From contig NC_135212.1 of the NCBI RefSeq assembly GCF_052324685.1, positions 49,875,898 to 49,939,897 on the forward strand: a DNA stretch of 64,000 nucleotides, given 5' to 3'. The position numbers were made by a program, and so were the translations under genes. The stretch comes from Brachyhypopomus gauderio (Eukaryota; Chordata; Actinopteri; Gymnotiformes; Hypopomidae). Positions 1 to 29,785 of this stretch are shown piece after piece; positions within the stretch are counted from its first letter, which is position 1; each line of letters opens with the position of its first letter. The notes under the pieces are model-generated. The model did no database searches. It was not told the origin of the DNA and saw only the letters and a list, made by a program, of their open reading frames with translations.

Positions 1-17
1 CTCTCGGCCACCTCGTC
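1..17 (-). tRNA. 5' fragment of tRNA-Ser(GCT) cut by window edge
   Basis: The 17 bases match the acceptor 5' strand and D-arm start of the consensus tRNA. The rest lies outside the window, so the array extends further left. Confidence 0.85.
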
Positions 18-149
18 GTTTGTGGTTGTGTGTCGATTGCGATTTCAAAGATGCAAACACTTTCACAGCACAAAAGGAGGCTTATCTGACTTGTGGGTCC
101 TGCACTTATATCAGGAGAGACGATTGTCAGAAATTAAAGAAAGCAACAC

Positions 150-231
150 CGACGAAGGTGGGATTCGAACCCACGCGTGCTATGCACAATGGATTAGCAG
201 TCCATCGCCTTAACCTCTCGGCCACCTCGTC
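150..231 (-). tRNA. tRNA-Ser(GCT)
   Basis: First whole copy. Consensus body with all stems paired apart from one acceptor G-U; AATTAC-type 5' flank; 3' trailer has T3-C-T3 rather than a T4 run. Confidence 0.85.
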
Positions 232-1433
232 AATTACAGTTGTGTGTCGATTGCGATTTCAAAGATGCAAACACTTTCACAGCTCAAAAGAAGGCTTTTC
301 TGACTTGTGGGTCCTGCACTTACAACAGGAGACACGATTGTCAGAAATTAAAGAAAGCAACACCGACGAAGGTGGGATTCAAACCCACGCGTGCTATGCA
401 CAATGGATTAGCAGTCCATCGCCTTAACCTCTCGGCCACCTCGTCAATTACTGTTGTGTGTCGATTGCGATTTCAAAGATGCAAACACTTTCACAGCACA
501 AAAGGAGGCTTATCTGACTTGTGGGTCCTGCACTTATATCAGGAGACACGATTGTCAGAAATTAAAGAAAGCAACACCGACGAAGGTGGGATTCGAACCC
601 ACGCGTGCTATGCTCAATGGATCAGCAGTCCATCGCCTTAACCTCTCGGCCACCTCGTCAATTACGGCTGTGTGTCGATTGCGATTTCAAAGATGCAAAT
701 ACTTTCACAGCACAAAAGGAGGCGTATCTGACTTGTGGGTCCTGCACTTATATCAGGAGACACGATTGTCAGAAATTAAAGAAAGCAACACCGACGAAGG
801 TGGGATTCGAACCCACACGTGCTATGCACAATGGATTAGCAGTCCATAGCCTTAACCTCTCGGCCACCTCGTCGTTTGTGGTTGTGTGTCGATAGCAATT
901 TCAAAGAAGCAAACACTTTCACAGCTCAAAAGAAGGCTTTTCTGACTTGTGGGTCCTGTAGTTACAGCAGGAGACACGATTGTCAGAAATTAAAGAAAGC
1001 AACACAGACGAAGGTGGGATTCGAACACACACGTGCTATGCATAATGGATTAGCAGTCCATCGCCTTAATCTATCGGCCACCTTGTCGTTTGTGCTTGTG
1101 TGTCGATTGCGATTTCAAAGATGCAAACACTTTCACAGCACAAAAGGAGGCTTATCTGACTTGTGGGTCCTGCACTTACAACAGGAGACACGATTGTCAG
1201 AAATTAAAGAAAGCAACACCGACAAAGGTGGGATTCGAACCCACGCGTGCTATGCACAATGGATTAGCAGTCCATCCACTTAACCTCTCGGCCACCTCGT
1301 CGTTTGTGGTTGTGTGTCGATTGCGATTTCAAAGATGCAAACACTTTCACAGCACAAAAGGAGGCTTATCTGACTTGTGGGTCCTGCACTTATATCAGGA
1401 GACACGATTGTCAGAAATTAAAGAAAGCAACAC

Positions 1434-1515
1434 CGACGAAGGTGGGATTCGAACCCACGCGTGCTATGCACAATGGATTAGCAGTCCATCGCCTTAACCT
1501 CTCGGCCACCTCGTC
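1434..1515 (-). tRNA. tRNA-Ser(GCT)
   Basis: Consensus body, AATTAC flank. Confidence 0.85.
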
Positions 1516-1861
1516 AATTACTGTTGTGTGTCGATTGCGATTTCAAAGATGCAAACACTTTCACAGCACAAAAGGAGGCTTATCTGACTTGTGGGTCCTG
1601 CACTTACAACAGGAGACACGATTGTCAGAAATTAAAGAAAGCAACACCGACGAAGGTGGGATTCGAACCCACGCATGCTATGCACAATGGATTAGCAGTC
1701 CATCCCCTTAACCTCTCGGCCACCTCGTCGTTTGTGGTTGTGTGTCGATTGCGATTTCAAAGATGCAAACACTTTCACAGCACAAAAGGAGGCTTATCTG
1801 ACTTGTGGGTCCTGCACTTATATCAGGAGACACGATTGTCAGAAATTAAAGAAAGCAACAC

Positions 1862-1943
1862 CGACGAAGGTGGGATTCGAACCCACGCGTGCTATGCACA
1901 ATGGATTAGCAGTCCATCGCCTTAACCTCTCGGCCACCTCGTC
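1862..1943 (-). tRNA. tRNA-Ser(GCT)
   Basis: Consensus body, AATTAC flank. Confidence 0.85.
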
Positions 1944-2075
1944 AATTACTGTTGTGTGTCGATTGCGATTTCAAAGATGCAAACACTTTCACAGCACAAA
2001 AGGAGGCTTATCTGACTTGTGGGTCCTGCACTTATATCAGGAGACACGATTGTCAGAAATTAAAGAAAGCAACAC

Positions 2076-2157
2076 CGACGAAGGTGGGATTCGAACCCAC
2101 GCGTGCTATGCACAATGGATTAGCAGTCCATCGCCTTAACCTCTCGGCCACCTCGTC
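2076..2157 (-). tRNA. tRNA-Ser(GCT)
   Basis: Consensus body, GTTTGTG flank. Confidence 0.85.
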
Positions 2158-2503
2158 GTTTGTGGTTGTGTGTCGATAGCAATTTCAAAGAAGCAAACAC
2201 TTTCACAGCACAAAAGAAGGCTTTTCTGACTTGTGGGTCCTGTAGTTACAGCAGGAGACACGATTGTCAGAAATTAAAGAAAGCAACACCGACGAAGGTG
2301 GGATTCGAACACACACGTGCTATGCATAATGGATTAGCAGTCCATCGCCTTAATCTATCGGCCAACTTGTCGTTTGTGCTTGTGTGTCGATTGCGATTTC
2401 AAAGATGCAAACACTTTCACAGCACAAAAGCAGCCGTATATGACTTGTGGGTCCTGCACTTACAACAGGAGACACGATTGTCAGAAATTAAAGAAAGCAA
2501 CAC

Positions 2504-2585
2504 CGACGAAGGTGGGATTCGAACCCACGCGTGCTATGCACAATGGATTAGCAGTCCATCGCCTTAACCTCTCGGCCACCTCGTC
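2504..2585 (-). tRNA. tRNA-Ser(GCT)
   Basis: Consensus body, GTTTGTG flank. Confidence 0.85.
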
Positions 2586-2931
2586 GTTTGTGGTTGTGTG
2601 TCGATAGCAATTTCAAAGAAGCAAACACTTTCACAGCACAAAAGAAGGCTTTTCTGACTTGTGGGTCCTGTAGTTACAGCAGGAGACACGATTGTCAGAA
2701 ATTAAAGAAAGCAACACCGACGAAGGTGGGATTCGAACACACACGTGCTATGCATAATGGATTAGCAGTCCATCGCCTTAATCTATCGGCCAACTTGTCG
2801 TTTGTGCTTGTGTGTCGATTGCGATTTCAAAGATGCAAACACTTTCACAGCACAAAAGCAGCCGTATATGACTTGTGGGTCCTGCACTTACAACAGGAGA
2901 CACGATTGTCAGAAATTAAAGAAAGCAACAC

Positions 2932-3013
2932 CGACGAAGGTGGGATTCGAACCCACACGTGCTATGCACAATGGATTAGCAGTCCATCGCCTTAACCTCT
3001 CGGCCACCTCGTC
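2932..3013 (-). tRNA. tRNA-Ser(GCT)
   Basis: Consensus stems; one C-to-T change between variable arm and T-arm; AATTAC flank. Confidence 0.85.
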
Positions 3014-3145
3014 AATTACGGTTGTGTGTCGATTGCGATTTCAAAGATGCAAATACTTTCACAGCACAAAAGGAGGCGTATCTGACTTGTGGGTCCTGCA
3101 CTTATATCAGGAGACACGATTGTCAGAAATTAAAGAAAGCAACAC

Positions 3146-3227
3146 CGACGAAGGTGGGATTCGAACCCACGCGTGCTATGCACAATGGATTAGCAGTCCA
3201 TCGCCTTAACCTCTCGGCCACCTTGTC
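3146..3227 (-). tRNA. tRNA-Ser(GCT), acceptor mismatch
   Basis: Consensus body but the 5' acceptor strand reads GACAAGG, giving an A-C mismatch; GTTTGTG flank. Confidence 0.75.
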
Positions 3228-4001
3228 GTTTGTGGTTGTGTGTCGATAGCAATTTCAAAGAAGCAAACACTTTCACAGCACAAAAGAAGGCTTTTCTGAC
3301 TTGTGGGTCCAGTAGTTACAGCAGGAGACACGATTGTCAGAAATTAAAGAAAGCAACACCGACGAAGGTGGGATTCGAACACACACGTGCTATGCATAAT
3401 GGATTAGCAGTCCATCGCCTTAATCTATCAGCCACCTTGTCGTTTGTGCTTGTGTGTCGATTGCGATTTCAAAGATGCAAACACTTTCACAGCACAAAAG
3501 GAGGCTTATCTGACTTGTGGGTCCTGCACTTACAACAGGAGACACGATTGTCAGAAATTAAAGAAAGCAACACCGACGAAGGTGGGATTCGAACCCACGC
3601 GTGCTATGCACAATGGATTAGCAGTCCATCCCCTTAACCTCTCGGCCACCTCGTCGTTTGTGGTTGTGTGTCGATTGCGATTTCAAAGATGCAAACACTT
3701 TCACAGCACAAAAGGAGGCTTATCTGACTTGTGGGTCCTGCACTTACAACAGGAGACACGATTGTCAGAAATTAAAGAAAGCAACACCGACGAAGGTGGG
3801 ATTCAAACCCACGCGTGCTATGCACAATGGATTAGCAGTACATCGCCTTAACCTCTCGGCCACCTCGTCAATTACAGTTGTGTGTCGATTGCGATTTCAA
3901 AGATGCAAACACTTTCACAGCACAAAAGGAGGCTTATCTGACTTGTGGGTCCTGCACTTATATCAGGAGACACGATTGTCAGAAATTAAAGAAAGCAACA
4001 C

Positions 4002-4083
4002 CGACGAAGGTGGGATTCGAACCCACGCGTGCTATGCACAATGGATTAGCAGTCCATCGCCTTAACCTCTCGGCCACCTCGTC
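4002..4083 (-). tRNA. tRNA-Ser(GCT)
   Basis: Consensus body, AATTAC flank. Confidence 0.85.
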
Positions 4084-4215
4084 AATTACAGTTGTGTGTC
4101 GATTGCGATTTCAAAGATGCAAACACTTTCACAGCACAAAAGGAGGCTTATCTGACTTGTGGGTCCTGCACTTATATCAGGAGACACGATTGTCAGAAAT
4201 TAAAGAAAGCAACAC

Positions 4216-4297
4216 CGACGAAGGTGGGATTCGAACCCACGCGTGCTATGCACAATGGATTAGCAGTCCATCGCCTTAACCTCTCGGCCACCTCGTC
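4216..4297 (-). tRNA. tRNA-Ser(GCT)
   Basis: Consensus body, GTTTGTG flank. Confidence 0.85.
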
Positions 4298-4643
4298 GTT
4301 TGTGGTTGTGTGTCGATAGCAATTTCAAAGAAGCAAACACTTTCACAGCACAAAAGAAGGCTTTTCTGACTTGTGGGTCCTGTAGTTACAGCAGGAGACA
4401 CGATTGTCAGAAATTAAAGAAAGCAACACCGACGAAGGTGGGATTCGAACACACACGTGCTATGCATAATGGATTAGCAGTCCATCGCCTTAATCTATCG
4501 GCCACCTTGTCGTTTGTGCTTGTGTGTCGATTGCGATTTCAAAGATGCAAACACTTTCACAGCACAAAAGCAGCCGTATATGACTTGTGGGTCCTGCACT
4601 TACAACAGGAGACACGATTGTCAGAAATTAAAGAAAGCAACAC

Positions 4644-4725
4644 CGACGAAGGTGGGATTCGAACCCACGCGTGCTATGCACAATGGATTAGCAGTCCATC
4701 GCCTTAACCTCTCGGCCACCTCGTC
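4644..4725 (-). tRNA. tRNA-Ser(GCT)
   Basis: Consensus body, AATTAC flank. Confidence 0.85.
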
Positions 4726-4857
4726 AATTACGGTTGTGTGTCGATTGCGATTTCAAAGATGCAAATACTTTCACAGCACAAAAGGAGGCGTATCTGACTT
4801 GTGGGTCCTGCACTTATATCAGGAGACACGATTGTCAGAAATTAAAGAAAGCAACAC

Positions 4858-4939
4858 CGACGAAGGTGGGATTCGAACCCACGCGTGCTATGCACAATGG
4901 ATTAGCAGTCCATCGCCTTAACCTCTCGGCCACCTCGTC
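4858..4939 (-). tRNA. tRNA-Ser(GCT)
   Basis: Consensus body, GTTTGTG flank. Confidence 0.85.
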
Positions 4940-5499
4940 GTTTGTGGTTGTGTGTCGATAGCAATTTCAAAGAAGCAAACACTTTCACAGCACAAAAGAA
5001 GGCTTTTCTGACTTGTGGGTCCAGTAGTTACAGCAGGAGACACGATTGTCAGAAATTGAAGAAAGCAACACCGACGAAGGTGGGATTCGAACACACACGT
5101 GCTATGCATAATGGATTAGCAGTCCATCGCCTTAATCTATCGGCCACCTTGTCGTTTGTGCTTGTGTGTCGATTGCGATTTCAAAGATGCAAACACTTTC
5201 ACAGCACAAAAGGAGGCTTATCTGACTTGTGGGTCCTGCACTTACAACAGGAGACACGATTGTCAGAAATTAAAGAAAGCAACACCGACGAAGGTGGGAT
5301 TCGAACACACACGTGCTATGCATAATGGATTAGCAGTCCATCCCCTTAACCTCTCGGCCACCTCGTCGTTTGTGGTTGTGTGTCGATTGCGATTTCAAAG
5401 ATGCAAACACTTTCACAGCACAAAAGGAGGCTTATCTGACTTGTGGGTCCTGCACTTACAACAGGAGACACAATTGTCAGAAATTAAAGAAAGCAACAT

Positions 5500-5581
5500 C
5501 GACGAAGGTGGGATTCGAACCCACGCGTGCTATGCACAATGGATTAGCAGTCCATCGCCTTAACCTCTCGGCCACCTCGTC
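5500..5581 (-). tRNA. tRNA-Ser(GCT)
   Basis: Consensus body; flank is a private GTGTGCG form. Confidence 0.85.
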
Positions 5582-6141
5582 GTGTGCGGTTGTGTGTCGA
5601 TAGCAATTTCAAAGAAGCAAACACTTTCACAGCACAAAAGAAGGCTTTTCTGACTTGTGGGTCCTGTAGTTACAGCAGGAGACACGATTGTCAGAAATTA
5701 AAGAAAGCAACACCGACGAAGGTGGGATTCGAACACACACGTGCTATGCATAATGGATTAGCAGTCCATCGCCTTAATCTATCGGCCACCTTGTCGTTTG
5801 TGGTTGTGTGTCGATTGCGATTTCAAAGATGCAAACACTTTCACAGCACAAAAGCAGCCGTATATGACTTGTGGGTCCTGCACTTACAACAGGAGACACG
5901 ATTGTCAGAAATTAAAGAAAGCAACACCGACGAAGGTGGGATTCGAACCCACGCGTGCTATGCACAATGGATTAGCAGTCCATCCCCTTAACCTCTCGGC
6001 CACCTCGTCGTTTGTGGTTGTGTGTCGATTGCGATTTCAAAGATGCAAACACTTTCACAGCACAAAAGGAGGCTTATCTGACTTGTGGGTCCTGCACTTA
6101 TATCAGGAGACACGATTGTCAGAAATTAAAGAAAGCAACAC

Positions 6142-6223
6142 CGACGAAGGTAGGATTCGAACCCACGCGTGCTATGCACAATGGATTAGCAGTCCATCGC
6201 CTTAACCTCTCGGCCACCTCGTC
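6142..6223 (-). tRNA. tRNA-Ser(GCT)
   Basis: T-stem 3' strand reads CCTAC, giving a G-U wobble; otherwise consensus; GTTTGTG flank. Confidence 0.8.
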
Positions 6224-6355
6224 GTTTGTGGTTGTGTGTCGATAGCAATTTCAAAGAAGCAAACACTTTCACAGCACAAAAGCAGCCGTATATGACTTGT
6301 GGGTCCTGCACTTACAACAGGAGACACGATTGTCAGAAATTTAAAAAAGCAACAC

Positions 6356-6437
6356 CGACGAAGGTGGGATTCGAACCCACGCGAGCTATGCAAAATGGAT
6401 AAGCAGTCCATCACCTTAACCTCTAGGCCACCTCGTC
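6356..6437 (-). tRNA. Diverged tRNA-Ser(GCT) with canonical T6 terminator
   Basis: Anticodon GCT in loop CTGCTTA (A37 changed to T). The variable-arm stem is altered and the D-stem keeps GCC opposite GGT with a wobble. Its trailer contains six Ts at 6348-6343, a strong Pol III terminator missing from nearly all other units. Confidence 0.65.
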
Positions 6438-6569
6438 GTTTGTGGTTGTGTGTCGATAGCAATTTCAAAGAAGCAAACACTTTCACAGCAAAAAAGAAGG
6501 CTTTTTTGACTTGTGGGTCCTGCACTTACATCAGGAGACACGATTGTCAGAAATTTAAAAAAGCAACAC

Positions 6570-6651
6570 CGACGAAGGTGGGATTCGAACCCACGCGTGC
6601 TATGCAAAATTGATTAGCAGTCCATCACCTTTACCTCTAGGCCACCTCGTC
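6570..6651 (-). tRNA. Diverged tRNA-Ser(GCT), anticodon-stem mismatch, T6 terminator
   Basis: Anticodon loop CTGCTAA is intact but the 3' stem strand TCAAT loses one pair. D-arm shares the CCTAGAGG form with 6356. Trailer has T6 at 6562-6557. Confidence 0.6.
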
Positions 6652-6780
6652 GTTTGTGGTTGTGTGTCGATTGCGATTTCAAAGATGCAAACACTTTCAC
6701 AGCACAAAAGGCTTATCTGACTTGTGGCTCCTCCACTTACACCAGGAGACACGATTGTCAGAAATTAAAGAAAGCAACAC

Positions 6781-6862
6781 CGACGAAGGTGGGATTCGAA
6801 CCCACACGTGCTATGCACAATGGATTAGCAGTCCATCGCCTTAACCTCTCGGCCACCTCGTC
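6781..6862 (-). tRNA. tRNA-Ser(GCT)
   Basis: Consensus stems with the C-to-T change beside the variable arm; its own unit carries the only 3-bp spacer deletion of the array. Confidence 0.85.
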
Positions 6863-6994
6863 AATTACGGTTGTGTGTCAATTGCGATTTCAAAGATGCA
6901 AATACTTTCACAGCACAAAAGGAGGCGTATCTGACTTGTGGGTCCTGCACTTATATCAGGAGACACGATGGTCAGAAATTAAAGAAAGCAACAC

Positions 6995-7076
6995 CGACGA
7001 AGGTGGGATTCGAACCCACGCGTGCTATGCACAATGGATTAGCAGTCCATCGCCTTAACCTCTCGGCCACCTCGTC
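6995..7076 (-). tRNA. tRNA-Ser(GCT)
   Basis: Consensus body; GTTTGTG flank; spacer marker GATGGTCAG shared with 11275 and 15555. Confidence 0.85.
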
Positions 7077-8278
7077 GTTTGTGGTTGTGTGTCGATAGCA
7101 ATTTCAAAGAAGCAAACACTTTCACAGCACAAATGAAGGCTTTTCTGACTTGTGGGTCCTGTAGTTACAGCAGGAGACACGATTGTCAGAAATTAAAGAA
7201 AGCAACACCGACGGAGGTGGGATTCGAACACACACGTGCTATGCATAATGGATTAGCAGTCCATCGCCTTAATCTATCCGCCACCTTGTCGTTTGTGCTT
7301 GTGTGTCGATTGCAATTTCAAAGATGCAAACACTTTCACAGCACAAAAGCAGCCGTATCTGACTTGTGGGTACTGCACTTACACCAGGAGACATGATTGT
7401 CAGAAATTAAAGAAAGCAACACCGACGAAGGTGGGATTCGAACCCAAGCGTGCTATGCACAAATGATTAGCAGTCCATCGCCTTAACCTCTCGGCCACCT
7501 CGTCAATTACGGTTGTGTGTCGATTGCGATTTCAAAGATGCAAATACTTTCACAGCACAAAAGGAGGCGTATCTGACTTGTGGGTCCTGCACTTATATCA
7601 GGAGACACGATGGTCAGAAATTAAAGAAAGCAACACCGACGAAGGTGGGATTCTAACCCACGCGTGCTATGCACAATGGATTAGCAGTCCATCGCCTTAA
7701 CCTCTCGGCCACCTCGTCGTTTGTGGTTGTGTGTCGATAGCAATTTCAAAGAAGCAAACACTTTCACAGCACAAAAGAAGGCTTTTCTGACTTGTGGGTC
7801 CTGTAGTTACAGCAGGAGACACGATTGTCAGAAATTAAAGAAAGCAACACCGATGAAGGTGGGATTCGAACACACACGTGCTATGCATAATGGATTAGCA
7901 GTCCATCGCCTTAATCTATCGGCCACCTTGTCGTTTGTGCTTGTGTGTCGATTGCGATTTCAAAGATGCAAACACTTTCACAGCACAAAAGCAGCCGTAT
8001 ATGACTTGGGGGTCCTGCACTTACAACAGGAGACACGATTGTCAGAAATTAAAGAAAGCAACACCGACGAAGGTGGGATTCTAACCCACGCGTGCTATGC
8101 ACAATGGATTAGCAGTCCATCCCCTTAACCTCTCGGCCACCTCGTCGTTTGTGGTTGTGTGTCGATTGCGATTTCAAAGATGCAAACACTTTCACAGCAC
8201 AAAAGGAGGCTTATCTGACTTGTGGGTCCTGCACTTATATCAGGAGACACGATTGTCAGAAATTAAAGAAAGCAACAC

Positions 8279-8360
8279 CGACGAAGGTGGGATTCGAACC
8301 CACGCGTGCTATGCACAATGGATTAGCAGTCCATCGCCTTAACCTCTCGGCCACCTCGTC
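8279..8360 (-). tRNA. tRNA-Ser(GCT)
   Basis: Consensus body, GTTTGTG flank. Confidence 0.85.
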
Positions 8361-8706
8361 GTTTGTGGTTGTGTGTCGATAGCAATTTCAAAGAAGCAAA
8401 CACTTTCACAGCACAAAAGCAGCCGTATATGACTTGTTGGTCCTGCACTTACAACAGGAGACACGATTGTCAGAAATTAAAGAAAGCAACACCGACGAAG
8501 GTGGGATTCGAACCCACGCGTGCTATGCACAATGGATTAGCAGTCCATCCCCTTAACCTCTTGGCCACCTCGTCGTTTGTGGTTGTGTGTCGATTGCGAT
8601 TTCAAAGATGCAAACACTTTCACAGCACAAAAGAAGGCTTATCTGACTTGTGGGTCCTGCACTTATATCAGGAGACACGATTGTCAGAAATTAAAGAAAG
8701 CAACAC

Positions 8707-8788
8707 CGACGAAGGTGGGATTCGAACCCACGCGTGCTATGCACAATGGATTAGCAGTCCATCGCCTTAACCTCTCGGCCACCTCGTC
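8707..8788 (-). tRNA. tRNA-Ser(GCT)
   Basis: Consensus body, AATTAC flank. Confidence 0.85.
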
Positions 8789-8920
8789 AATTACAGTTGT
8801 GTGTCGATTGCGATTTCAAAGATGCAAACACTTTCACAGCACAAAAGGAGGCTTATCTGACTTGTGGGTCCTGCACTTATATCAGGAGACACGATTGTCA
8901 GAAATTAAAGAAAGCAACAC

Positions 8921-9002
8921 CGACGAAGGTGGGATTCGAACCCACGCGTGCTATGCACAATGGATTAGCAGTCCATCGCCTTAACCTCTCGGCCACCTCG
9001 TC
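8921..9002 (-). tRNA. tRNA-Ser(GCT)
   Basis: Consensus body, GTTTGTG flank. Confidence 0.85.
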
Positions 9003-10204
9003 GTTTGTGGTTGTGTGTCGATAGCAATTTCAAAGAAGCAAACACTTTCACAGCACAAAAGAAGGCTTTTCTGACTTGTGGGTCCTGTAGTTACAGCAGG
9101 AGACACGATTGTCAGAAATTAAAGAAAGCAACACCGACGGAGGTGGGATTCGAACACACACGTGCTATGCATAATGGATTAGCAGTCCATCGCCTTAATC
9201 TATCCGCCACCTTGTCGTTTGTGCTTGTGTGTCGATTGCAATTTCAAAGATGCAAACACTTTCACAGCACAAAAGCAGCCGTATCTGACTTGTGGGTACT
9301 GCACTTACACCAGGAGACATGATTGTCAGAAATTAAAGAAAGCAACACCGACGAAGGTGGGATTCGAACCCACGCGTGCTATGCACAAATGATTAGCAGT
9401 CCATCGCCTTAACCTCTCGGCCACCTCGTCAATTACGGTTGTGTGTCGATTGCGATTTCAAAGATGCAAATACTTTCACAGCACAAAAGGAGGCGTATCT
9501 GACTTGTGGGTCCTGCACTTATATCAGGAGACACGATGGTCAGAAATTAAAGAAAGCAACACCGACGAAGGTGGGATTCTAACCCACGCGTGCTATGCAC
9601 AATGGATTAGCAGTCCATCGCCTTAACCTCTCGGCCACCTCGTCGTTTGTGGTTGTGTGTCGATAGCAATTTCAAAGAAGCAAACACTTTCACAGCACAA
9701 AAGAAGGCTTTTCTGACTTGTGGGTCCTGTAGTTACAGCAGGAGACACGATTGTCAGAAATTAAAGAAAGCAACACCGATGAAGGTGGGATTCGAACACA
9801 CACGTGCTATGCATAATGGATTAGCAGTCCATCGCCTTAATCTATCGGCCACCTTGTCGTTTGTGCTTGTGTGTCGATTGCGATTTCAAAGATGCAAACA
9901 CTTTCACAGCACAAAAGCAGCCGTATATGACTTGGGGGTCCTGCACTTACAACAGGAGACACGATTGTCAGAAATTAAAGAAAGCAACACCGACGAAGGT
10001 GGGATTCTAACCCACGCGTGCTATGCACAATGGATTAGCAGTCCATCCCCTTAACCTCTCGGCCACCTCGTCGTTTGTGGTTGTGTGTCGATTGCGATTT
10101 CAAAGATGCAAACACTTTCACAGCACAAAAGGAGGCTTATCTGACTTGTGGGTCCTGCACTTATATCAGGAGACACGATTGTCAGAAATTAAAGAAAGCA
10201 ACAC

Positions 10205-10286
10205 CGACGAAGGTGGGATTCGAACCCACGCGTGCTATGCACAATGGATTAGCAGTCCATCGCCTTAACCTCTCGGCCACCTCGTC
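10205..10286 (-). tRNA. tRNA-Ser(GCT)
   Basis: Consensus body, GTTTGTG flank. Confidence 0.85.
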
Positions 10287-10632
10287 GTTTGTGGTTGTGT
10301 GTCGATAGCAATTTCAAAGAAGCAAACACTTTCACAGCACAAAAGCAGCCGTATATGACTTGTTGGTCCTGCACTTACAACAGGAGACACGATTGTCAGA
10401 AATTAAAGAAAGCAACACCGACGAAGGTGGGATTCGAACCCACGCGTGCTATGCACAATGGATTAGCAGTCCATCCCCTTAACCTCTTGGCCACCTCGTC
10501 GTTTGTGGTTGTGTGTCGATTGCGATTTCAAAGATGCAAACACTTTCACAGCACAAAAGAAGGCTTATCTGACTTGTGGGTCCTGCACTTATATCAGGAG
10601 ACACGATTGTCAGAAATTAAAGAAAGCAACAC

Positions 10633-10714
10633 CGACGAAGGTGGGATTCGAACCCACGCGTGCTATGCACAATGGATTAGCAGTCCATCGCCTTAACCTC
10701 TCGGCCACCTCGTC
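10633..10714 (-). tRNA. tRNA-Ser(GCT)
   Basis: Consensus body, AATTAC flank. Confidence 0.85.
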
Positions 10715-10846
10715 AATTACAGTTGTGTGTCGATTGCGATTTCAAAGATGCAAACACTTTCACAGCACAAAAGGAGGCTTATCTGACTTGTGGGTCCTGC
10801 ACTTATATCAGGAGACACGATTGTCAGAAATTAAAGAAAGCAACAC

Positions 10847-18632: not shown

Positions 18633-19620
18633 AATTACTGTTGTGTGTCGATTGCGATTTCAAAGATGCAAACACTTTCACAGCACAAAAGGAGGCTTAT
18701 CTGACTTGTGGGTCCTGCACTTATATCAGGAGACACGATTGTCAGAAATTAAAGAAAGCAACACCGACGAAGGTGGGATTCGAACCCACGCGTGCTATGC
18801 TCAATGGATCAGCAGTCCATCGCCTTAACCTCTCGGCCACCTCGTCAATTACGGCTGTGTGTCGATTGCGATTTCAAAGATGCAAATACTTTCACAGCAC
18901 AAAAGGAGGCGTATCTGACTTGTGGGTCCTGCACTTATATCAGGAGACACGATTGTCAGAAATTAAAGAAAGCAACACCGACGAAGGTGGGATTCGAACC
19001 CACACGTGCTATGCACAATGGATTAGCAGTCCATAGCCTTAACCTCTCGGCCACCTCGTCGTTTGTGGTTGTGTGTCGATAGCAATTTCAAAGAAGCAAA
19101 CACTTTCACAGCTCAAAAGAAGGCTTTTCTGACTTGTGGGTCCTGTAGTTACAGCAGGAGACACGATTGTCAGAAATTAAAGAAAGCAACACAGACGAAG
19201 GTGGGATTCGAACACACACGTGCTATGCATAATGGATTAGCAGTCCATCCCCTTAACCTCTCGGCCACCTCGTCGTTTGTGGTTGTGTGTCGATTGCGAT
19301 TTCAAAGATGCAAACACTTTCACAGCACAAAAGGAGGCTTATCTGACTTGTGGGTCCTGCACTTACAACAGGAGACACGATTGTCAGAAATTAAAGAAAG
19401 CAACACCGACGAAGGTGGGATTCGAACCCACGCGTGCTATGCACAATGGATTAGCAGTCCATCCCCTTAACCTCTCGGCCACCTCGTCGTTTGTGGTTGT
19501 GTGTCGATTGCGATTTCAAAGATGCAAACACTTTCACAGCACAAAAGGAGGCTTATCTGACTTGTGGGTCCTGCACTTATATCAGGAGACACGATTGTCA
19601 GAAATTAAAGAAAGCAACAC

Positions 19621-19702
19621 CGACGAAGGTGGGATTCGAACCCACGCGTGCTATGCACAATGGATTAGCAGTCCATCGCCTTAACCTCTCGGCCACCTCG
19701 TC
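19621..19702 (-). tRNA. tRNA-Ser(GCT)
   Basis: Consensus body, AATTAC flank. Confidence 0.85.
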
Positions 19703-19834
19703 AATTACTGTTGTGTGTCGATTGCGATTTCAAAGATGCAAACACTTTCACAGCACAAAAGGAGGCTTATCTGACTTGTGGGTCCTGCACTTATATCAGG
19801 AGACACGATTGTCAGAAATTAAAGAAAGCAACAC

Positions 19835-19916
19835 CGACGAAGGTGGGATTCGAACCCACGCGTGCTATGCACAATGGATTAGCAGTCCATCGCCTTAACC
19901 TCTCGGCCACCTCGTC
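19835..19916 (-). tRNA. tRNA-Ser(GCT)
   Basis: Consensus body, GTTTGTG flank. Confidence 0.85.
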
Positions 19917-20262
19917 GTTTGTGGTTGTGTGTCGATAGCAATTTCAAAGAAGCAAACACTTTCACAGCACAAAAGAAGGCTTTTCTGACTTGTGGGTCCT
20001 GTAGTTACAGCAGGAGACACGATTGTCAGAAATTAAAGAAAGCAACACCGACGAAGGTGGGATTCGAACACACACGTGCTATGCATAATGGATTAGCAGT
20101 CCATCGCCTTAATCTATCGGCCAACTTGTCGTTTGTGCTTGTGTGTCGATTGCGATTTCAAAGATGCAAACACTTTCACAGCACAAAAGCAGCCGTATAT
20201 GACTTGTGGGTCCTGCACTTACAACAGGAGACACGATTGTCAGAAATTAAAGAAAGCAACAC

Positions 20263-20344
20263 CGACGAAGGTGGGATTCGAACCCACACGTGCTATGCAC
20301 AATGGATTAGCAGTCCATCGCCTTAACCTCTCGGCCACCTCGTC
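20263..20344 (-). tRNA. tRNA-Ser(GCT)
   Basis: Duplicate of 2932, with the same C-to-T beside the variable arm. Confidence 0.85.
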
Positions 20345-20476
20345 AATTACGGTTGTGTGTCGATTGCGATTTCAAAGATGCAAATACTTTCACAGCACAA
20401 AAGGAGGCGTATCTGACTTGTGGGTCCTGCACTTATATCAGGAGACACGATTGTCAGAAATTAAAGAAAGCAACAC

Positions 20477-20558
20477 CGACGAAGGTGGGATTCGAACCCA
20501 CGCGTGCTATGCACAATGGATTAGCAGTCCATCGCCTTAACCCCTCGGCCACCTTGTC
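20477..20558 (-). tRNA. tRNA-Ser(GCT), acceptor mismatch
   Basis: Acceptor GACAAGG (A-C mismatch) and one D-loop change; duplicate of 3146. Confidence 0.75.
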
Positions 20559-21332
20559 GTTTGTGGTTGTGTGTCGATAGCAATTTCAAAGAAGCAAACA
20601 CTTTCACAGCACAAAAGAAGGCTTTTCTGACTTGTGGGTCCAGTAGTTACAGCAGGAGACACGATTGTCAGAAATTAAAGAAAGCAACACCGACGAAGGT
20701 GGGATTCGAACACACACGTGCTATGCATAATGGATTAGCAGTCCATCGCCTTAATCTATCAGCCACCTTGTCGTTTGTGCTTGTGTGTCGATTGCGATTT
20801 CAAAGATGCAAACACTTTCACAGCACAAAAGGAGGCTTATCTGACTTGTGGGTCCTGCACTTACAACAGGAGACACGATTGTCAGAAATTAAAGAAAGCA
20901 ACACCGACGAAGGTGGGATTCGAACCCACGCGTGCTATGCACAATGGATTAGCAGTCCATCCCCTTAACCTCTCGGCCACCTCGTCGTTTGTGGTTGTGT
21001 GTCGATTGCGATTTCAAAGATGCAAACACTTTCACAGCACAAAAGGAGGCTTATCTGACTTGTGGGTCCTGCACTTACAACAGGAGACACGATTGTCAGA
21101 AATTAAAGAAAGCAACACCGACGAAGGTGGGATTCAAACCCACGCGTGCTATGCACAATGGATTAGCAGTACATCGCCTTAACCTCTCGGCCACCTCGTC
21201 AATTACAGTTGTGTGTCGATTGCGATTTCAAAGATGCAAACACTTTCACAGCACAAAAGGAGGCTTATCTGACTTGTGGGTCCTGCACTTATATCAGGAG
21301 ACACGATTGTCAGAAATTAAAGAAAGCAACAC

Positions 21333-21414
21333 CGACGAAGGTGGGATTCGAACCCACGCGTGCTATGCACAATGGATTAGCAGTCCATCGCCTTAACCTC
21401 TCGGGCACCTCGTC
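21333..21414 (-). tRNA. tRNA-Ser(GCT), D-stem mismatch
   Basis: First D-stem base is C instead of G, losing the 10-25 pair; AATTAC flank. Confidence 0.75.
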
Positions 21415-21546
21415 AATTACAGTTGTGTGTCGATTGCGATTTCAAAGATGCAAACACTTTCACAGCACAAAAGGAGGCTTATCTGACTTGTGGGTCCTGC
21501 ACTTATATCAGGAGACACGATTGTCAGAAATTAAAGAAAGCAACAC

Positions 21547-21628
21547 CGACGAAGGTGGGATTCGAACCCACGCGTGCTATGCACAATGGATTAGCAGTCC
21601 ATCGCCTTAACCTCTCGGCCACCTCGTC
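21547..21628 (-). tRNA. tRNA-Ser(GCT)
   Basis: Consensus body, GTTTGTG flank. Confidence 0.85.
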
Positions 21629-21974
21629 GTTTGTGGTTGTGTGTCGATAGCAATTTCAAAGAAGCAAACACTTTCACAGCACAAAAGAAGGCTTTTCTGA
21701 CTTGTGGGTCCTGTAGTTACAGCAGGAGACACGATTGTCAGAAATTAAAGAAAGCAACACCGACGAAGGTGGGATTCGAACACACACGTGCTATGCATAA
21801 TGGATTAGCAGTCCATCGCCTTAATCTATCGGCCACCTTGTCGTTTGTGCTTGTGTGTCGATTGCGATTTCAAAGATGCAAACACTTTCACAGCACAAAA
21901 GCAGCCGTATATGACTTGTGGGTCCTGCACTTACAACAGGAGACACGATTGTCAGAAATTAAAGAAAGCAACAC

Positions 21975-22056
21975 CGACGAAGGTGGGATTCGAACCCACG
22001 CGTGCTATGCACAATGGATTAGCAGTCCATCGCCTTAACCTCTCGGCCACCTCGTC
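21975..22056 (-). tRNA. tRNA-Ser(GCT)
   Basis: Consensus body, AATTAC flank. Confidence 0.85.
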
Positions 22057-22188
22057 AATTACGGTTGTGTGTCGATTGCGATTTCAAAGATGCAAATACT
22101 TTCACAGCACAAAAGGAGGCGTATCTGACTTGTGGGTCCTGCACTTATATCAGGAGACACGATTGTCAGAAATTAAAGAAAGCAACAC

Positions 22189-22270
22189 CGACGAAGGTGG
22201 GATTCGAACCCACGCGTGCTATGCACAATGGATTAGCAGTCCATCGCCTTAACCTCTCGGCCACCTCGTC
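22189..22270 (-). tRNA. tRNA-Ser(GCT)
   Basis: Consensus body, GTTTGTG flank. Confidence 0.85.
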
Positions 22271-22830
22271 GTTTGTGGTTGTGTGTCGATAGCAATTTCA
22301 AAGAAGCAAACACTTTCACAGCACAAAAGAAGGCTTTTCTGACTTGTGGGTCCAGTAGTTACAGCAGGAGACACGATTGTCAGAAATTGAAGAAAGCAAC
22401 ACCGACGAAGGTGGGATTCGAACACACACGTGCTATGCATAATGGATTAGCAGTCCATCGCCTTAATCTATCGGCCACCTTGTCGTTTGTGCTTGTGTGT
22501 CGATTGCGATTTCAAAGATGCAAACACTTTCACAGCACAAAAGGAGGCTTATCTGACTTGTGGGTCCTGCACTTACAACAGGAGACACGATTGTCAGAAA
22601 TTAAAGAAAGCAACACCGACGAAGGTGGGATTCGAACACACACGTGCTATGCATAATGGATTAGCAGTCCATCCCCTTAACCTCTCGGCCACCTCGTCGT
22701 TTGTGGTTGTGTGTCGATTGCGATTTCAAAGATGCAAACACTTTCACAGCACAAAAGGAGGCTTATCTGACTTGTGGGTCCTGCACTTACAACAGGAGAC
22801 ACGATTGTCAGAAATTAAAGAAAGCAACAC

Positions 22831-22912
22831 CGACAAAGGTGGGATTCGAACCCACGCGTGCTATGCACAATGGATTAGCAGTCCATCGCCTTAACCTCTC
22901 GGCCACCTCGTC
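22831..22912 (-). tRNA. tRNA-Ser(GCT)
   Basis: 3' acceptor strand CTTTGTC adds a second G-U wobble; otherwise consensus. Confidence 0.8.
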
Positions 22913-23258
22913 GTTTGTGGTTGTGTGTCGATAGCAATTTCAAAGAAGCAAACACTTTCACAGCACAAAAGAAGGCTTTTCTGACTTGTGGATCCTGTAG
23001 TTACAGCAGGAGACACGATTGTCAGAAATTAAAGAAAGCAACACCGACGAAGGTGGGATTCGAACACACGCGTGCTATGCACAATGGATTAGCAGTCCAT
23101 CGCCTTAACCTCTCGGCCACCTCGTCGTTTGTGGTTGTGTGTCGATAGCAATTTCAAAGAAGCAAACACTTTCACGGCACAAAAGAAGGCTTTTCTGACT
23201 TGTGGGTCCTGTAGTTACAGCAGGAGACACGATTGTCAGAAATTAAAGAAAGCAACAC

Positions 23259-23298
23259 CGACGAAGGTGGGATTCGAACACACACGTGCTATGCATAA
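23259..23298 (-). pseudogene. 3' half of class B tRNA-Ser split by the CACTAG-ended insertion
   Basis: T-arm and variable arm of a class B copy stop at ATAA just before CACTAG. The 5' half is at 25300-25345. Confidence 0.9.
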
Positions 23299-25299
<2,001 letters not shown>

Positions 25300-25345
25300 A
25301 TAATGGATTAGCAGTCCATCGCCTTAATCTATCGGCCACCTTGTC
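25300..25345 (-). pseudogene. 5' half of the split class B tRNA-Ser
   Basis: Starts with the duplicated ATAA and continues with the class B anticodon arm, D-arm (ATAGATTAAGG) and acceptor GACAAGG. Joining the halves at ATAA restores an exact class B copy. Confidence 0.9.
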
Positions 25346-25905
25346 GTTTGTGCTTGTGTGTCGATTGCGATTTCAAAGATGCAAACACTTTCACAGCACA
25401 AAAGCAGCCGTATATGACTTGTGGGTCCTGCACTTACAACAGGAGACACGATTGTCAGAAATTAAAGAAAGCAACACCGACGAAGGTGGGATTCGAACCC
25501 ACGCGTGCTATGCACAATGGATTAGCAGTCCATCCCCTTAACCTCTCGGCCACCTCGTCGTTTGTGGTTGTGTGTCGATTGCGATTTCAAAGATGCAAAC
25601 ACTTTCACAGCACAAAAGGAGGCTTATCTGACTTGTGGGTCCTGCACTTACAACAGGAGACACGATTGTCAGAAATTAAAGAAAGCAACACCGACGAAGG
25701 TGGGATTCGAACCCACGCGTGCTATGCACAATGGATTAGCAGTGCATCCCCTTAACCTCTCGGCCCCCTCGTCGTTTGTGGTTGTTTGTCGATTGCGATT
25801 TCAAAGATGCAAACACTTTCACAGCACAAAAGGAGGCTTATCTGACTTGTGGGTCCTGCACTTATATCAGGAGACACGATTGTCAGAAATTAAAGAAAGC
25901 AACAC

Positions 25906-25987
25906 TGACGAAGGTGGGATTCGAACCCACGCGTGCTATGCACAATGGATTAGCAGTCCATCGCCTTAACCTCTCGGCCACCTCGTC
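25906..25987 (-). tRNA. tRNA-Ser(GCT)
   Basis: Consensus body but the discriminator base is A instead of the G expected for eukaryotic tRNA-Ser. Confidence 0.75.
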
Positions 25988-26119
25988 AATTACAGTTGTG
26001 TGTCGATTGCGATTTCAAAGATGCAAACACTTTCACAGCACAAAAGGAGGCTTATCTGACTTGTGGGTCCTGCACTTACAACAGGAGACACGATTGTCAG
26101 AAATTAAAGAAAGCAACAC

Positions 26120-26201
26120 CGACGAAGGTGGGATTCGAACCCACGCGTGCTATGCACAATGGATTAGCAGTCCATCGCCTTAACCTCTCGGCCACCTCGT
26201 C
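26120..26201 (-). tRNA. tRNA-Ser(GCT)
   Basis: Consensus body, AATTAC flank. Confidence 0.85.
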
Positions 26202-26333
26202 AATTACGGTTGTGTGTCGATTGCGATTTCAAAGATGCAAATACTTTCACAGCACAAAAGGAGGCGTATCTGACTTGTGGGTCCTGCACTTATATCAGGA
26301 GACACGATTGTCAGAAATTAAAGAAAGCAACAC

Positions 26334-26415
26334 AGACGAAGGTGTGATTCGAACCCACGCGTGCTATGCACAATGGATTAGCAGTCCATCGCCTTAACCT
26401 CTCGGCCACCTCGTC
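26334..26415 (-). tRNA. tRNA-Ser(GCT), T-stem mismatch
   Basis: T-stem 3' strand CACAC breaks one pair and the discriminator is T; likely weak or inactive. Confidence 0.65.
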
Positions 26416-27617
26416 GTTTGTGGTTGTGTGTCGATAGCAATTTCAAAGAAGCAAACACTTTCACAGCACAAAAGAAGGCTTTTCTGACTTGTGGGTCCAG
26501 TAGTTACAGCAGGAGACACGATTGTCAGAAATTAAAGAAAGCAACACCGATGAAGGTGGGATTCGAACACACACGTGCTATGCATAATGGATTAGCAGTC
26601 CATCGCCTTAATCTATCGGCCACCTTGTCGTTTGTGCTTGTGTGTCGATTGCGATTTCAAAGATGCAAACACTTTCACAGCACAAAAGCAGCCGTATATG
26701 ACTTGTGGGTCCTGCACTTACAACAGGAGACACGATTGTCAGAAATTAAAGAAAGCAACACCGACGAAGGTGGGATTCGAACCCACGCGTGCTATGCACA
26801 ATGGATTAGCAGTCCATCCCCTTAACCTCTCGGCCACCTCGTCGTTTGTGGTTGTGTGTCGATTGCGATTTCAAAGATGCAAACACTTTCACAGCACAAA
26901 AGGAGGCTTATCTGACTTGTGGGTCCTGCACTTACAACAGGAGACACGATTGTCAGAAATTAAAGAAAGCAACACCGACGAAGGTGGGATTCGAACACAC
27001 ACGTGCTATGCATAATGGATTAGCAGTCCATCGCCTTAATCTATCGGCCACCTTGTCGTTTGTGCTTGTGTGTCGATTGCGATTTCAAAGATGCAAACAC
27101 TTTCACAGCACAAAAGCAGCCGTATATGACTTGTGGGTCCTGCACTTACAACAGGAGACACGATTGTCAGAAATTAAAGAAAGCAACACCGACGAAGGTG
27201 GGATTCGAACCCACGCGTGCTATGCACAATGGATTAGCAGTCCATCCCCTTAACCTCTCGGCCACCTCGTCGTTTGTGGTTGTGTGTCGATTGCGATTTC
27301 AAAGATGCAAACACTTTCACAGCACAAAAGGAGGCTTATCTGACTTGTGGGTCCTGCACTTACAACAGGAGACACGATTGTCAGAAATTAAAGAAAGCAA
27401 CACCGACGAAGGTGGGATTCGAACCCACGCGTGCTATGCACAATGGATTAGCAGTCCATCCCCTTAACCTCTCGGCCACCTCGTCGTTTGTGGTTGTGTG
27501 TCGATTGCGATTTCAAAGATGCAAACACTTTCACAGCACAAAAGGAGGCTTATCTGACTTGTGGGTCCTGCACTTATATCAGGAGACACGATTGTCAGAA
27601 ATTAAAGAAAGCAACAC

Positions 27618-27699
27618 CGACGAAGGTGGGATTCGAACCCACGCGTGCTATGCACAATGGATTAGCAGTCCATCGCCTTAACCTCTCGGCCACCTCGTC
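27618..27699 (-). tRNA. tRNA-Ser(GCT)
   Basis: Consensus body, AATTAC flank. Confidence 0.85.
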
Positions 27700-27831
27700 A
27701 ATTACAGTTGTGTGTCGATTGCGATTTCAAAGATGCAAACACTTTCACAGCACAAAAGGAGGCTTATCTGACTTGTGGGTCCTGCACTTATATCAGGAGA
27801 CACGATTGTCAGAAATTAAAGAAAGCAACAC

Positions 27832-27913
27832 CGACGAAGGTGGGATTCGAACCCTCGCGTGCTATGCACAATGGATTAGCAGTCCATCGCCTTAACCTCT
27901 CGGCCACCTCGTC
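27832..27913 (-). tRNA. tRNA-Ser(GCT), T-stem mismatch
   Basis: T-stem 5' strand GAGGG loses one pair; AATTAC flank. Confidence 0.7.
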
Positions 27914-28045
27914 AATTACGGTTGTGTGTCGATTGCGATTTCAAAGATGCAAATACTTTCACAGCACAAAAGGAGGCGTATCTGACTTGTGGGTCCTGCA
28001 CTTATATCAGGAGACACGATTGTCAGAAATTAAAGAAAGCAACAC

Positions 28046-28127
28046 CGACTAAGGTGGGATTCGAACCCACGCGTGCTATGCACAATGGATTAGCAGTCCA
28101 TCGCCTTAACCTCTCGGCCACCTCGTC
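28046..28127 (-). tRNA. tRNA-Ser(GCT), acceptor mismatch
   Basis: 3' acceptor strand CTTAGTC loses one pair; GTTTGTG flank. Confidence 0.7.
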
Positions 28128-28259
28128 GTTTGTGGTTGTGTGTCGATAGCAATTTCAAAGAAGCAAACACTTTCACAGCACAAAAGAAGGCTTATCTGAC
28201 TTGTGGGTCCTGTAGTTACAGCAGGAGACACGATTGTCAGAAATTAACGAAAGCAACAC

Positions 28260-28341
28260 CGACGAAGGTGGGATTCGAACCCACGCGTGCTATGCACAAT
28301 GGATTAGCAGCCCATCGCCTTAACCTCTCGGCCACCTCGTC
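28260..28341 (-). tRNA. tRNA-Ser(GCT)
   Basis: Anticodon-stem base A to G beside the loop gives a G-U pair; anticodon intact; trailer altered to TTTCGTT. Confidence 0.75.
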
Positions 28342-29115
28342 GTTTGTGGTTGTGTGTCGATAGCAATTTCAAAGAAGCAAACACTTTCACAGCACAAAAG
28401 AAGGCTTTTCTGACTTGTGGGTCCTGTAGTTACAGCAGGAGACACGATTGTCAGAAATTAAAGAAAGCAACACCGACGAAGGTGGGATTCGAACACACAC
28501 GTGCTATGCATAATGGATTAGCAGTCCATCGCCTTAATCTATCGGCCACCTTGTCGTTTGTGCTTGTGTGTCGATTGCGATTTCAAAGATGCAAACACTT
28601 TCACAGCACAAAAGCAGCCGTATATGACTTGTGGGTCCTGCACTTACAACAGGAGACACGATTGTCAGAAATTAAAGAAAGCAACACCGACGAAGGTGGG
28701 ATTCGAACCCACGCGTGCTATGCACAATGGATTAGCAGTCCATCCCCTTAACCTCTCGGCCACCTCGTCGTTTGTGGTTGTGTGTCGATTGCGATTTCAA
28801 AGATGCAAACACTTTCACAGCACAAAAGGAGGCTTATCTGACTTGTGGGTCCTGCACTTACAACAGGAGACACGATTGTCAGAAATTAAAGAAAGCAACA
28901 CCGACGAAGGTGGGATTCGAACACACACGTGCTATGCATAATGGATTAGCAGTCCATCGCCTTAATCTCTCGGCCACCTTGTCGTTTGTGCTTGTGTGTC
29001 GATTGCGATTTCAAAGATGCAAACACTTTCACAGCACAAAAGCAGCCGTATCTGACTTGTGGGTACTGCACTTACACCAGGAGACACGATTGTCAGAAAT
29101 TAAAGAAAGCAACAC

Positions 29116-29197
29116 CGATGAAGGTGGGATTCGAACCCACGCGTGCTATGCACAATGGATTAGCAGTCCATCGCCTTAACCTCTCGGCCACCTCGTC
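29116..29197 (-). tRNA. tRNA-Ser(GCT), acceptor mismatch
   Basis: 3' acceptor strand CTTCATC leaves a C-A mismatch; AATTAC flank; in the degraded end of the array. Confidence 0.7.
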
Positions 29198-29329
29198 AAT
29201 TACGGTTGTGTGTCGATTGCGATTTCAAAGATGCAAACATTTTCACAGCACAAAAGGAGGCTTATCTGACTTGTGGGTCCTGCACTTACTTCAGGAGACA
29301 CGATTGTCAGAAATTAAAGAAAACAACAC

Positions 29330-29411
29330 CGACGAATGTGGTATTCAAACCCACGCGTGCAAAGCACAATGGATTAGCAGTCCATCGCCTTAACCTCTTG
29401 GCTACCTCGTC
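29330..29411 (-). pseudogene. Degraded tRNA-Ser copy
   Basis: Mutations in acceptor (GAATGTGG), T-loop (TTTGAAT), variable arm (TTTGC) and D-stem (GTAGCC); anticodon GCT remains. Confidence 0.75.
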
Positions 29412-29543
29412 GCTTGTGGTTTTGTGTCGATTGCGATTTCAAAGATGTAAACACTTTCACAGCACAAAAGCAGCCGTATCTGACTTGTGGGTACTGCACT
29501 TACACCAGGAGACACGATTGTCAGAAATTAAAGAAAGCAACAC

Positions 29544-29625
29544 CGACGAAGGTGGGATTCGAACCCACGTGTGCTATGCACAATGGATTCGCAGTCCATC
29601 TCCTTAACCTCTCGGCCACCTCGTC
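29544..29625 (-). tRNA. tRNA-Ser-like body with anticodon GCG
   Basis: The anticodon loop reads CTGCGAA instead of CTGCTAA, so positions 34-36 are GCG, which would decode the arginine codon CGC. The long serine-type variable arm and acceptor are kept. The first D-stem pair is lost (GGAGATGG). Serine identity rests largely on the long arm, so a charged product would be expected to carry serine. Activity is uncertain. Confidence 0.7.
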
Positions 29626-29757
29626 AATTACGGTTGTGTGTCGATTGCGATTTCAAAGATGCAAACACTTTCACAGCACAAAAGCAGCCGTATCTGACTT
29701 GTGGGTCTTGCACTTACATCAGGAGACACGATTGTCAGAAATTAAAGAAAGCAACAC

Positions 29758-29785
29758 CGACGAAGGTGGGATTCGAACCTACGCC
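29758..29785 (-). pseudogene. Truncated tRNA-Ser 3' end at array boundary
   Basis: Acceptor 3' strand and T-arm are present (one change, CCTACG), then the match stops and GC-rich sequence begins. Confidence 0.8.

Follow-up and report, generated by a model that had tools for sequence, protein, structure and literature searches.

In teleosts, tRNA genes (tDNAs) occur in clusters of fifty and more, with a clustered share of 87% in stickleback and 65% in zebrafish; according to Bermudez-Santana et al. 2010 (PMC2888827), these clusters turn over fast and include pseudogenes, and Danio tDNA pairs are nearly all parallel and mostly heterogeneous. Other tandem arrays include the human 1q23.3 tDNA VNTR, an unstable vertebrate array with 9-43 units per allele, whose 7.3-kb, GC-rich unit holds tRNA genes and a CTCF site (PMC4041453). 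The Arabidopsis SYY cluster consists of tandem duplicated units of serine and tyrosine tDNAs, which are silent in most tissues and show tissue-specific expression, with Tyr copies reported to be functional (PMC12308677). In the protist Entamoeba, tandem tRNA gene arrays make up over 10% of the genome, with units of up to 5 tRNA genes and complex short tandem repeats between the genes (PMC2652664).

The array described here lies in a window of 64,000 nucleotides (i.e., the whole stretch of DNA analysed) and resembles the teleost clusters in that it holds 128 tRNA genes on the same strand, spaced by 214 bp, with at least one defect in 79 of them. Whereas the zebrafish pairs are mostly heterogeneous, this array repeats one isoacceptor at a constant spacing of 214 bp and shows higher-order repeats. 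It shares tandem duplicated serine tDNAs with the SYY cluster, yet the serine-tyrosine unit of that plant cluster is unlike the unit here; the short unit with a single tRNA also differs from the human and Entamoeba units. The original prediction had placed the array far beyond ordinary tRNA gene clusters, which overstates the case given the fifty-plus clusters of teleosts; rather, it appears to be an especially long case of a known phenomenon, as large teleost tDNA clusters are already known.

Extent and organization of the array

ARAGORN called 128 tRNAs within positions 149-29626, every one on the minus strand, with a GCT anticodon in 127 and GCG in one, the latter being, to judge from its position and sequence, a mutated serine copy. 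Rfam model RF00005 likewise gave 128 matches over its gathering score (30.1-65.3 bits), the extra row in the 129-row output being UnaL2. TRF reported a period of 214 bp at 1-23295 (108.9 copies, 93% matches, score 40276) and again at 25302-29784 (20.9 copies, 94% matches, score 7832), scores that leave no room for a chance origin of the periodicity. The ARAGORN positions delimit 128 complete units, of which 127 measure 214 bp and one 211 bp (6569-6779). The window thus holds 129 units, including one split by a transposon-like insert, plus a partial unit at either end (Table 1). The right end of the array falls inside a unit; since the array also runs to the left window edge in mid-unit, the figure of about 130 copies is a minimum, unless the contig starts at that edge. 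These counts, and the tandem-repeat search that the original prediction had proposed as a check, bear out its claim of about 130 tRNA-Ser(GCT) copies in one 214-bp array. Its description of the array as almost uninterrupted needs one correction, as the 2.0-kb insert breaks the array once.

Table 1. Coordinates of the array, its parts and the insert within the window
Feature	Position	Strand	Remarks
Array segment A	1..23298	-	tRNA-Ser(GCT) gene/pseudogene + ~130 bp spacer per unit
Segment A, left partial unit	1-148
Segment A, complete units	149-23257		n=108 (107 x 214 bp, one 211 bp)
Segment A, left part of split unit	23258-23298		41 bp
Array segment B	25304..29785	-
Segment B, right part of split unit	25304-25476		173 bp
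Segment B, complete units	25477-29756		n=20
Segment B, truncated last unit	29757-29785
Intact consensus tRNA-Ser(GCT), example	149..232	-	82-nt tRNA at 150-231, Rfam 63.9 bits
GCT->GCG anticodon copy	29543..29626	-	ARAGORN tRNA-Arg
Recent block amplification core	7448..16022	-	exact repeats of 4,295 bp and 2,032 bp
DNA-transposon-like insert	23299..25299	.	2,001 bp, splits one array unit
ATAA target-site duplication, left copy	23295..23298	.
ATAA target-site duplication, right copy	25300..25303	.

The insert ends in a 13-bp perfect terminal inverted repeat, CACTAGAGCTCCT, and removing it leaves a 214-bp unit of class C (see below) that is identical to four others. Its interior contains ATAG microsatellites and a 112-bp tandem repeat, and microsatellite pairs are among the 25 of 64 repeats listed in a repeat scan. 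When the insert was compared with Pfam in six frames, nothing exceeded the cut-off, the matches under it being weak (best E 0.0066), and no relics of array units were found inside it.

Unit lineages and block duplication

Clustering of the units yielded three main lineages, A, B and C, of which class C is a decayed one; a C25-to-G change is carried by 27 of the 67 class-A units. There are 60 distinct units, which differ pairwise by 5.9% on average, and an exact twin is present for 94/128. Multi-unit blocks are more alike than neighbours, as in higher-order satellites: none of the 107 neighbouring pairs in segment A is identical, whereas 19 units in a row are identical to those 20 units further along, and mean unit identity is 0.935 at lag 1 vs 0.957 at lag 20. 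The list of the 20 longest exact pairs includes repeats of 4,295 bp (the longest; lag of 20 units, starts at 7448 and 11728), 2,032 bp (lags of 9 and 11 units) and 1,555 bp (lags of 9 and 29 units); blocks of 553-1,397 bp recur ~78-85 units apart, partly diverged.

The order of the lineages is also regular. Read on the plus strand, C is preceded by B in 21/21 cases in segment A (5,000 shuffles: mean 5.8, maximum 12), where the trimer ABC occurs 20 times (shuffles: mean 3.0, maximum 10); in segment B, C is preceded by B in just 2 of 4 cases. The array seems to have grown by copying multi-unit blocks, and this block duplication and the nested higher-order repeats support the earlier suggestion that it evolves like a satellite or rDNA.

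Transcription signals and variants of the tRNA copies

The consensus tRNA forms 24/24 stem pairs, including a 4-bp variable arm, and thus passes a cloverleaf check; it shows the features of a nuclear tRNA-Ser(GCT), i.e., a class II cloverleaf with a long variable arm, a GCT anticodon and G73. Under a strict cloverleaf test, which required every one of the 24 stem pairs as well as 16 semi-invariant positions to be retained, 49/128 copies passed (38%), close to the about 40% predicted to keep a consensus or near-consensus fold. The exact 82-nt consensus is present in 39 copies, and 68 are at most one base off. When one consensus copy was folded freely, the minimum-energy fold (-30.8 kcal/mol) was not a cloverleaf, while the centroid (-28.7) was near one.

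An internal Pol III promoter is matched by pattern, as the A box pattern TGGCNNAGNGG occurs in 100/128 copies and the B box pattern GGTTCGANTCC in 85/128. A run of at least four Ts (T4) close downstream, as a Pol III terminator, was not found in the array copies at large: T4 is absent within 70 nt of the tRNA in 125/128. The first T4 lies ~74 nt downstream in 123 copies and 71 nt in one, with none within 250 nt in another, and only three have it nearby (6 or 7 nt past the tRNA); an interrupted T tract, TTTCTTTAATTT, sits ~7 nt past the tRNA end. A missing close T4 does not exclude function, since in humans a T-stretch within the first 15 bp is stated for no more than 50-60% of tRNA genes (PMC11346459).

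We compared variants in the tRNA with those in the spacer. The consensus sequences of classes A and B differ at 13 spacer positions and at none in the tRNA (0/82; Fisher P 0.002), a post hoc contrast between classes derived from clustering the same units; it disfavours a purely neutral satellite from the start, and could stem from gene conversion. Classes A and C, in turn, differ at 11 spacer and 6 tRNA positions (P 1.0). Relative to single variants, those shared between units are less common in the tRNA than among spacer sites (16:33 vs 29:25; P 0.046), with a similar ratio within A+B (11:23 vs 24:19; P 0.065), where shared-variant density as such does not differ (11 per 82 tRNA vs 24 per 131 spacer sites; P 0.45). 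Overall variant density is not lower in the tRNA (49 per 82 sites vs 54 per 132). In the 30-nt trailer directly 3' of the tRNA, a region picked after inspecting the data, there is 1 shared variant vs 23 across the remaining 101 sites of the spacer (P 0.015); the trailer is not poor in single variants (7 per 30 vs 12 per 101 sites).

Among recent variants, protection of the fold was not seen: 32/49 tRNA variants break the structure vs 30.8 expected at random, and within A+B the figures are 13/23 vs 13.7 for single and 9/11 vs 6.5 for shared variants. These figures do not support the idea that the tRNA is now under strong purifying selection. Variants present in a single copy reach a higher density in the tRNA (33 per 82 vs 25 per 132 spacer sites; P 0.0009), also when CpG sites are left out (23 per 65 vs 22 per 125; P 0.011) and within A+B (23 per 82 vs 19 per 131; P 0.02). 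Transcription-associated mutagenesis has been reported for tRNA genes and would fit this excess, with assembly errors as an alternative source; we build nothing on it.

Readings of the array and its surroundings

We consider it probable, at about 70%, that the locus is a nuclear vertebrate (most likely teleost) tRNA-Ser(GCT) array expanded by tandem block duplication, possibly with a working core and a load of pseudogenes. Blocks would have expanded via unequal crossing-over or similar recombination, with the array under concerted evolution in the host genome. The internal promoters of intact A and B copies may allow Pol III to transcribe them, and past selection or gene conversion may have held the tRNA of the two classes identical while the spacers diverged. 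With copy number far exceeding need, selection per copy would have become too weak to halt decay, so that class C and the C25-to-G copies would be passengers; many copies are decayed, and some of these were co-amplified with the rest. The array would then be partly gene family and partly satellite DNA. With ~130 aligned copies at one locus, it would show how a gene family can become satellite-like DNA, with some lineages preserving the gene, others decaying and recombination spreading the two kinds alike. It is also a warning that plain totals of tRNA genes in genomes of this sort may lump functional copies together with amplified pseudogenes.

Much of the same evidence bears on the idea that this is a dead tRNA-derived satellite, in which the tRNA sequence is a mere passenger, with none of the copies in use and the retained folds left over from an origin not long ago. 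Structure-breaking variants at the random level, the many defective copies, the amplification of class C and C25-to-G copies along with the others and the lack of a nearby T4 in nearly all copies all point that way. Nevertheless, we find this unlikely, as the A and B tRNA consensus is identical despite the diverged spacers, 39 copies retain the exact consensus and the trailer has few shared variants. Improbable, too, is a bulk, stage-specific source of serine tRNA (e.g., in oocytes or early embryos, and otherwise silent) with weak terminators and a selected copy number; on that account, single copies may decay while block duplication maintains the array, and such a source in a fish would be compatible with the anatomy seen here.

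Misassembly of a smaller array could account for the copy number and the long exact repeats, given that exact repeats of up to 4,295 bp are a structure prone to duplication or collapse by assemblers. The 60 distinct units and their mean difference are unlike simple false expansion, and the partly diverged distant blocks and the clean insertion with its matching target-site duplication also make an artefact very improbable; misassembly could alter the copy count more than it bears on the existence of the array. A Helenus-type element, i.e., tandem LTRs of a TRIM retrotransposon with a tRNA-like Pol III promoter, such as zebrafish LTR-11_DR, would similarly yield a short repeat holding a tRNA-like sequence. 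PMC10886601 mentions tandem arrays of LTR-11_DR and tabulates many predicted tRNA genes as Helenus copies, so that predicting a tRNA is not by itself enough to dismiss such an element. In that paper, however, Helenus elements are 311-1263 bp long, compared with a 214-bp unit here, and their predicted structures do not support tRNA function, compared with 24/24 pairs and up to 65.3 bits. TRF found 214 bp as the sole period, with no LTR/internal alternation, and inspection by eye for a PBS and PPT recognised no PBS. We rejected this scarcely credible option mainly on unit length and the absence of alternation, the array being set apart from LTR-11_DR by description.

Beyond the array, the search for unit relics across 29786-64000 returned just a 17-bp (E 0.055) and a 12-bp (E 0.71) match, and a search of a phage collection gave no match. 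Some flank exons look like ANKRD40; they had no Pfam or PDB match. The flank also contains a LINE-type reverse transcriptase followed by an ORF with ALKBH8_N, as well as a VHS exon (1.3e-22) and a GAT match slightly under the cut-off (29.2 vs 31 bits).

Extent and condition of the array

ARAGORN called 128 tRNA genes in the window, 127 of them with the Ser(GCT) anticodon; the single Arg(GCG) call, judged by its place and sequence, is a serine copy with an altered anticodon base. Rfam gave the same number of tRNA matches above the gathering score (128; 30.1-65.3 bits), and TRF found a period of 214 over two stretches. The tRNA-Ser(GCT) array with 214-bp spacing described at the outset is confirmed. 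The array had also been called almost uninterrupted: 127 of the 128 complete units are indeed 214 bp long (the other is 211 bp), and there is one break, the insert. Both edges lie mid-unit, the left at the window's first base and the right at 29785, and all unit counts are those within the window.

Features of the window
Feature	Position	Strand	Basis
tRNA genes	149-29626	-	ARAGORN
Period-214 repeat, left segment	1-23295		TRF
Insert	23299-25299		
Period-214 repeat, right segment	25302-29784		TRF
GC-rich, simple-repeat-rich stretch adjoining the truncated last unit	29786-31660		
LINE-type reverse transcriptase (RVT_1, 2.7e-31), then ORF with ALKBH8_N (7e-21)	33231-35264	+	Pfam
ORFs like Tc1/mariner transposase fragments	35705-36195, 54430-54705	-	By eye
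Exons resembling ANKRD40	40003-41004		
VHS domain exon and GAT match slightly under cut-off	~48803-50846	-	Domain matches

Every one of the 24 expected stem pairs forms in the 82-nt consensus. Under a strict rule combining these pairs with 16 semi-invariant positions, 49 of the 128 copies count as intact; a single defect is present in 34, two in 13 and at least three in 32. An exact match to the consensus is seen in 39 copies, and 68 lie within one base of it, making the original estimate that about 40% keep a consensus or near-consensus fold a fair one. When the consensus copy at 150-231 was folded freely, the minimum (-30.8 kcal/mol, z -2.27) was not the cloverleaf and 5 of 200 shuffles folded equally well, while the centroid (-28.7) was near the cloverleaf.

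The box A pattern is present in 100/128 copies and the box B pattern in 85/128. The first T4 lies ~74 nt downstream in 123/128 copies, at 6 or 7 nt in three and at 71 in one; one copy has no T4 within 250 nt downstream. According to PMC11346459, only 50-60% of human tRNA genes show a T-stretch within the initial 15 bp. The usual trailer, GTGTTGCTTTCTTTAATTTCTGAC, occurs in 121/128 copies. The 30-nt stretch from its start holds 1 shared variant, compared with 23 in the remaining 101 spacer sites (P 0.015), and 7 single variants, compared with 12; it is poor in shared but not in single variants, so that a weak terminator there is possible.

Growth of the array and its insert

The 128 units comprise 60 distinct ones and 94 have an exact twin, yet none of the 107 neighbouring pairs in the left segment is identical, which argues for copying in blocks. 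Nineteen consecutive units equal those 20 units along, and 9-unit runs recur at lags 9 and 11; the 20 longest exact repeats include ones of 4,295, 2,032 and 1,555 bp, as well as blocks of 553-1,397 bp that come back ~78-85 units off. Clustering placed all but three of the units, which stand alone, in one of three main lineages: A with 67, B with 33 and C with 25. When the left segment is read on the plus strand, C follows B in 21/21 cases and AB in 20/21, against maxima of 12 and 10 in 5,000 shuffles; in the short right segment, two of the four C units follow B and two follow A. We infer an older three-unit repeat underlying the later 9-, 11- and 20-unit blocks.

The insert (2,001 bp) has perfect 13-bp inverted ends (CACTAGAGCTCCT) and is flanked by a target-site duplication, ATAA. 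Once the insert is taken out, the split unit measures 214 bp and is identical to four other units, and the two segments were therefore a single array at the time of insertion. The insert contains a tandem repeat of 112 bp as well as ATAG microsatellites; translated in six frames, it matched no Pfam family above cut-off (best E 0.0066). The insert is DNA-transposon-like and landed in a unit of the decayed class C type; ends beginning with CACTAG and a 4-bp duplication are reminiscent of CMC/Chapaev elements, a possible assignment.

Possible past constraint on the tRNA

The A and B consensuses, from classes defined on the same data as this comparison, differ at 0/82 tRNA and 13/132 spacer sites (P 0.002). 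Between C and A there are 6 differences in the tRNA and 11 in the spacer (P 1.0), and thus the C tRNA bears no sign of protection. Through its six changes the C tRNA loses three stem pairs together with R15 and G19, and each of the 25 C copies has at least three defects. We read this pattern as suggesting constraint on the tRNA in the past and relaxation now, although the A/B identity could alternatively stem from gene conversion between the two classes. The ratio of shared to single variants is lower in the tRNA (P 0.046; within A+B, P 0.065), a shortage that points weakly in the same direction as the identity. Evidence against such constraint is that structure-breaking changes make up 32 of 49 tRNA variants (30.8 expected) and, within A+B, 13 of 23 single (13.7 expected) and 9 of 11 shared variants (6.5 expected). 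Within A+B, shared-variant density in the tRNA is not below that of the spacer (P 0.45), and C25-to-G, which breaks a D-stem pair, is carried by 27 of the 67 class A units.

Across the units (149-29756), the tRNA carries roughly double the spacer's density of single-copy variants, also outside CpG sites, an excess that might reflect transcription-associated mutation.

Known systems and the right flank

PMC2888827 describes teleost tDNA clusters of fifty and more, clustering of 87% of tDNAs in stickleback and 65% in zebrafish, and tDNA pairs that are almost all parallel in Danio and mostly heterogeneous in zebrafish. Other sources describe the Arabidopsis SYY cluster of tandem tDNAs, serine included (PMC12308677), and an unstable human tDNA repeat of 9-43 units (PMC4041453). 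The present array is a long, single-isoacceptor member of this type. Helenus retroelements were considered because PMC10886601 mentions tandem arrays of LTR-11_DR and shows many predicted tRNA genes of rust fungi to be Helenus copies; unit length and the lack of LTR/internal alternation led to their rejection. The array was well described at the outset and is present in the sequence; the locus is half gene, half satellite, instructive as such a case and of an already known type.

In the flank, Rfam's one match unrelated to tRNA is a UnaL2 LINE tail. Taken with the reverse transcriptase, the ALKBH8_N ORF, the VHS and sub-threshold GAT matches and the ANKRD40-like exons, it suggests that the host is a teleost. 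Two transposase-like pieces (35842-36195 and 54430-54705) had no Pfam match, nor had the ANKRD40-like exons, of which the single exon searched had no PDB match. The VHS/GAT locus is probably a TOM1-like gene.
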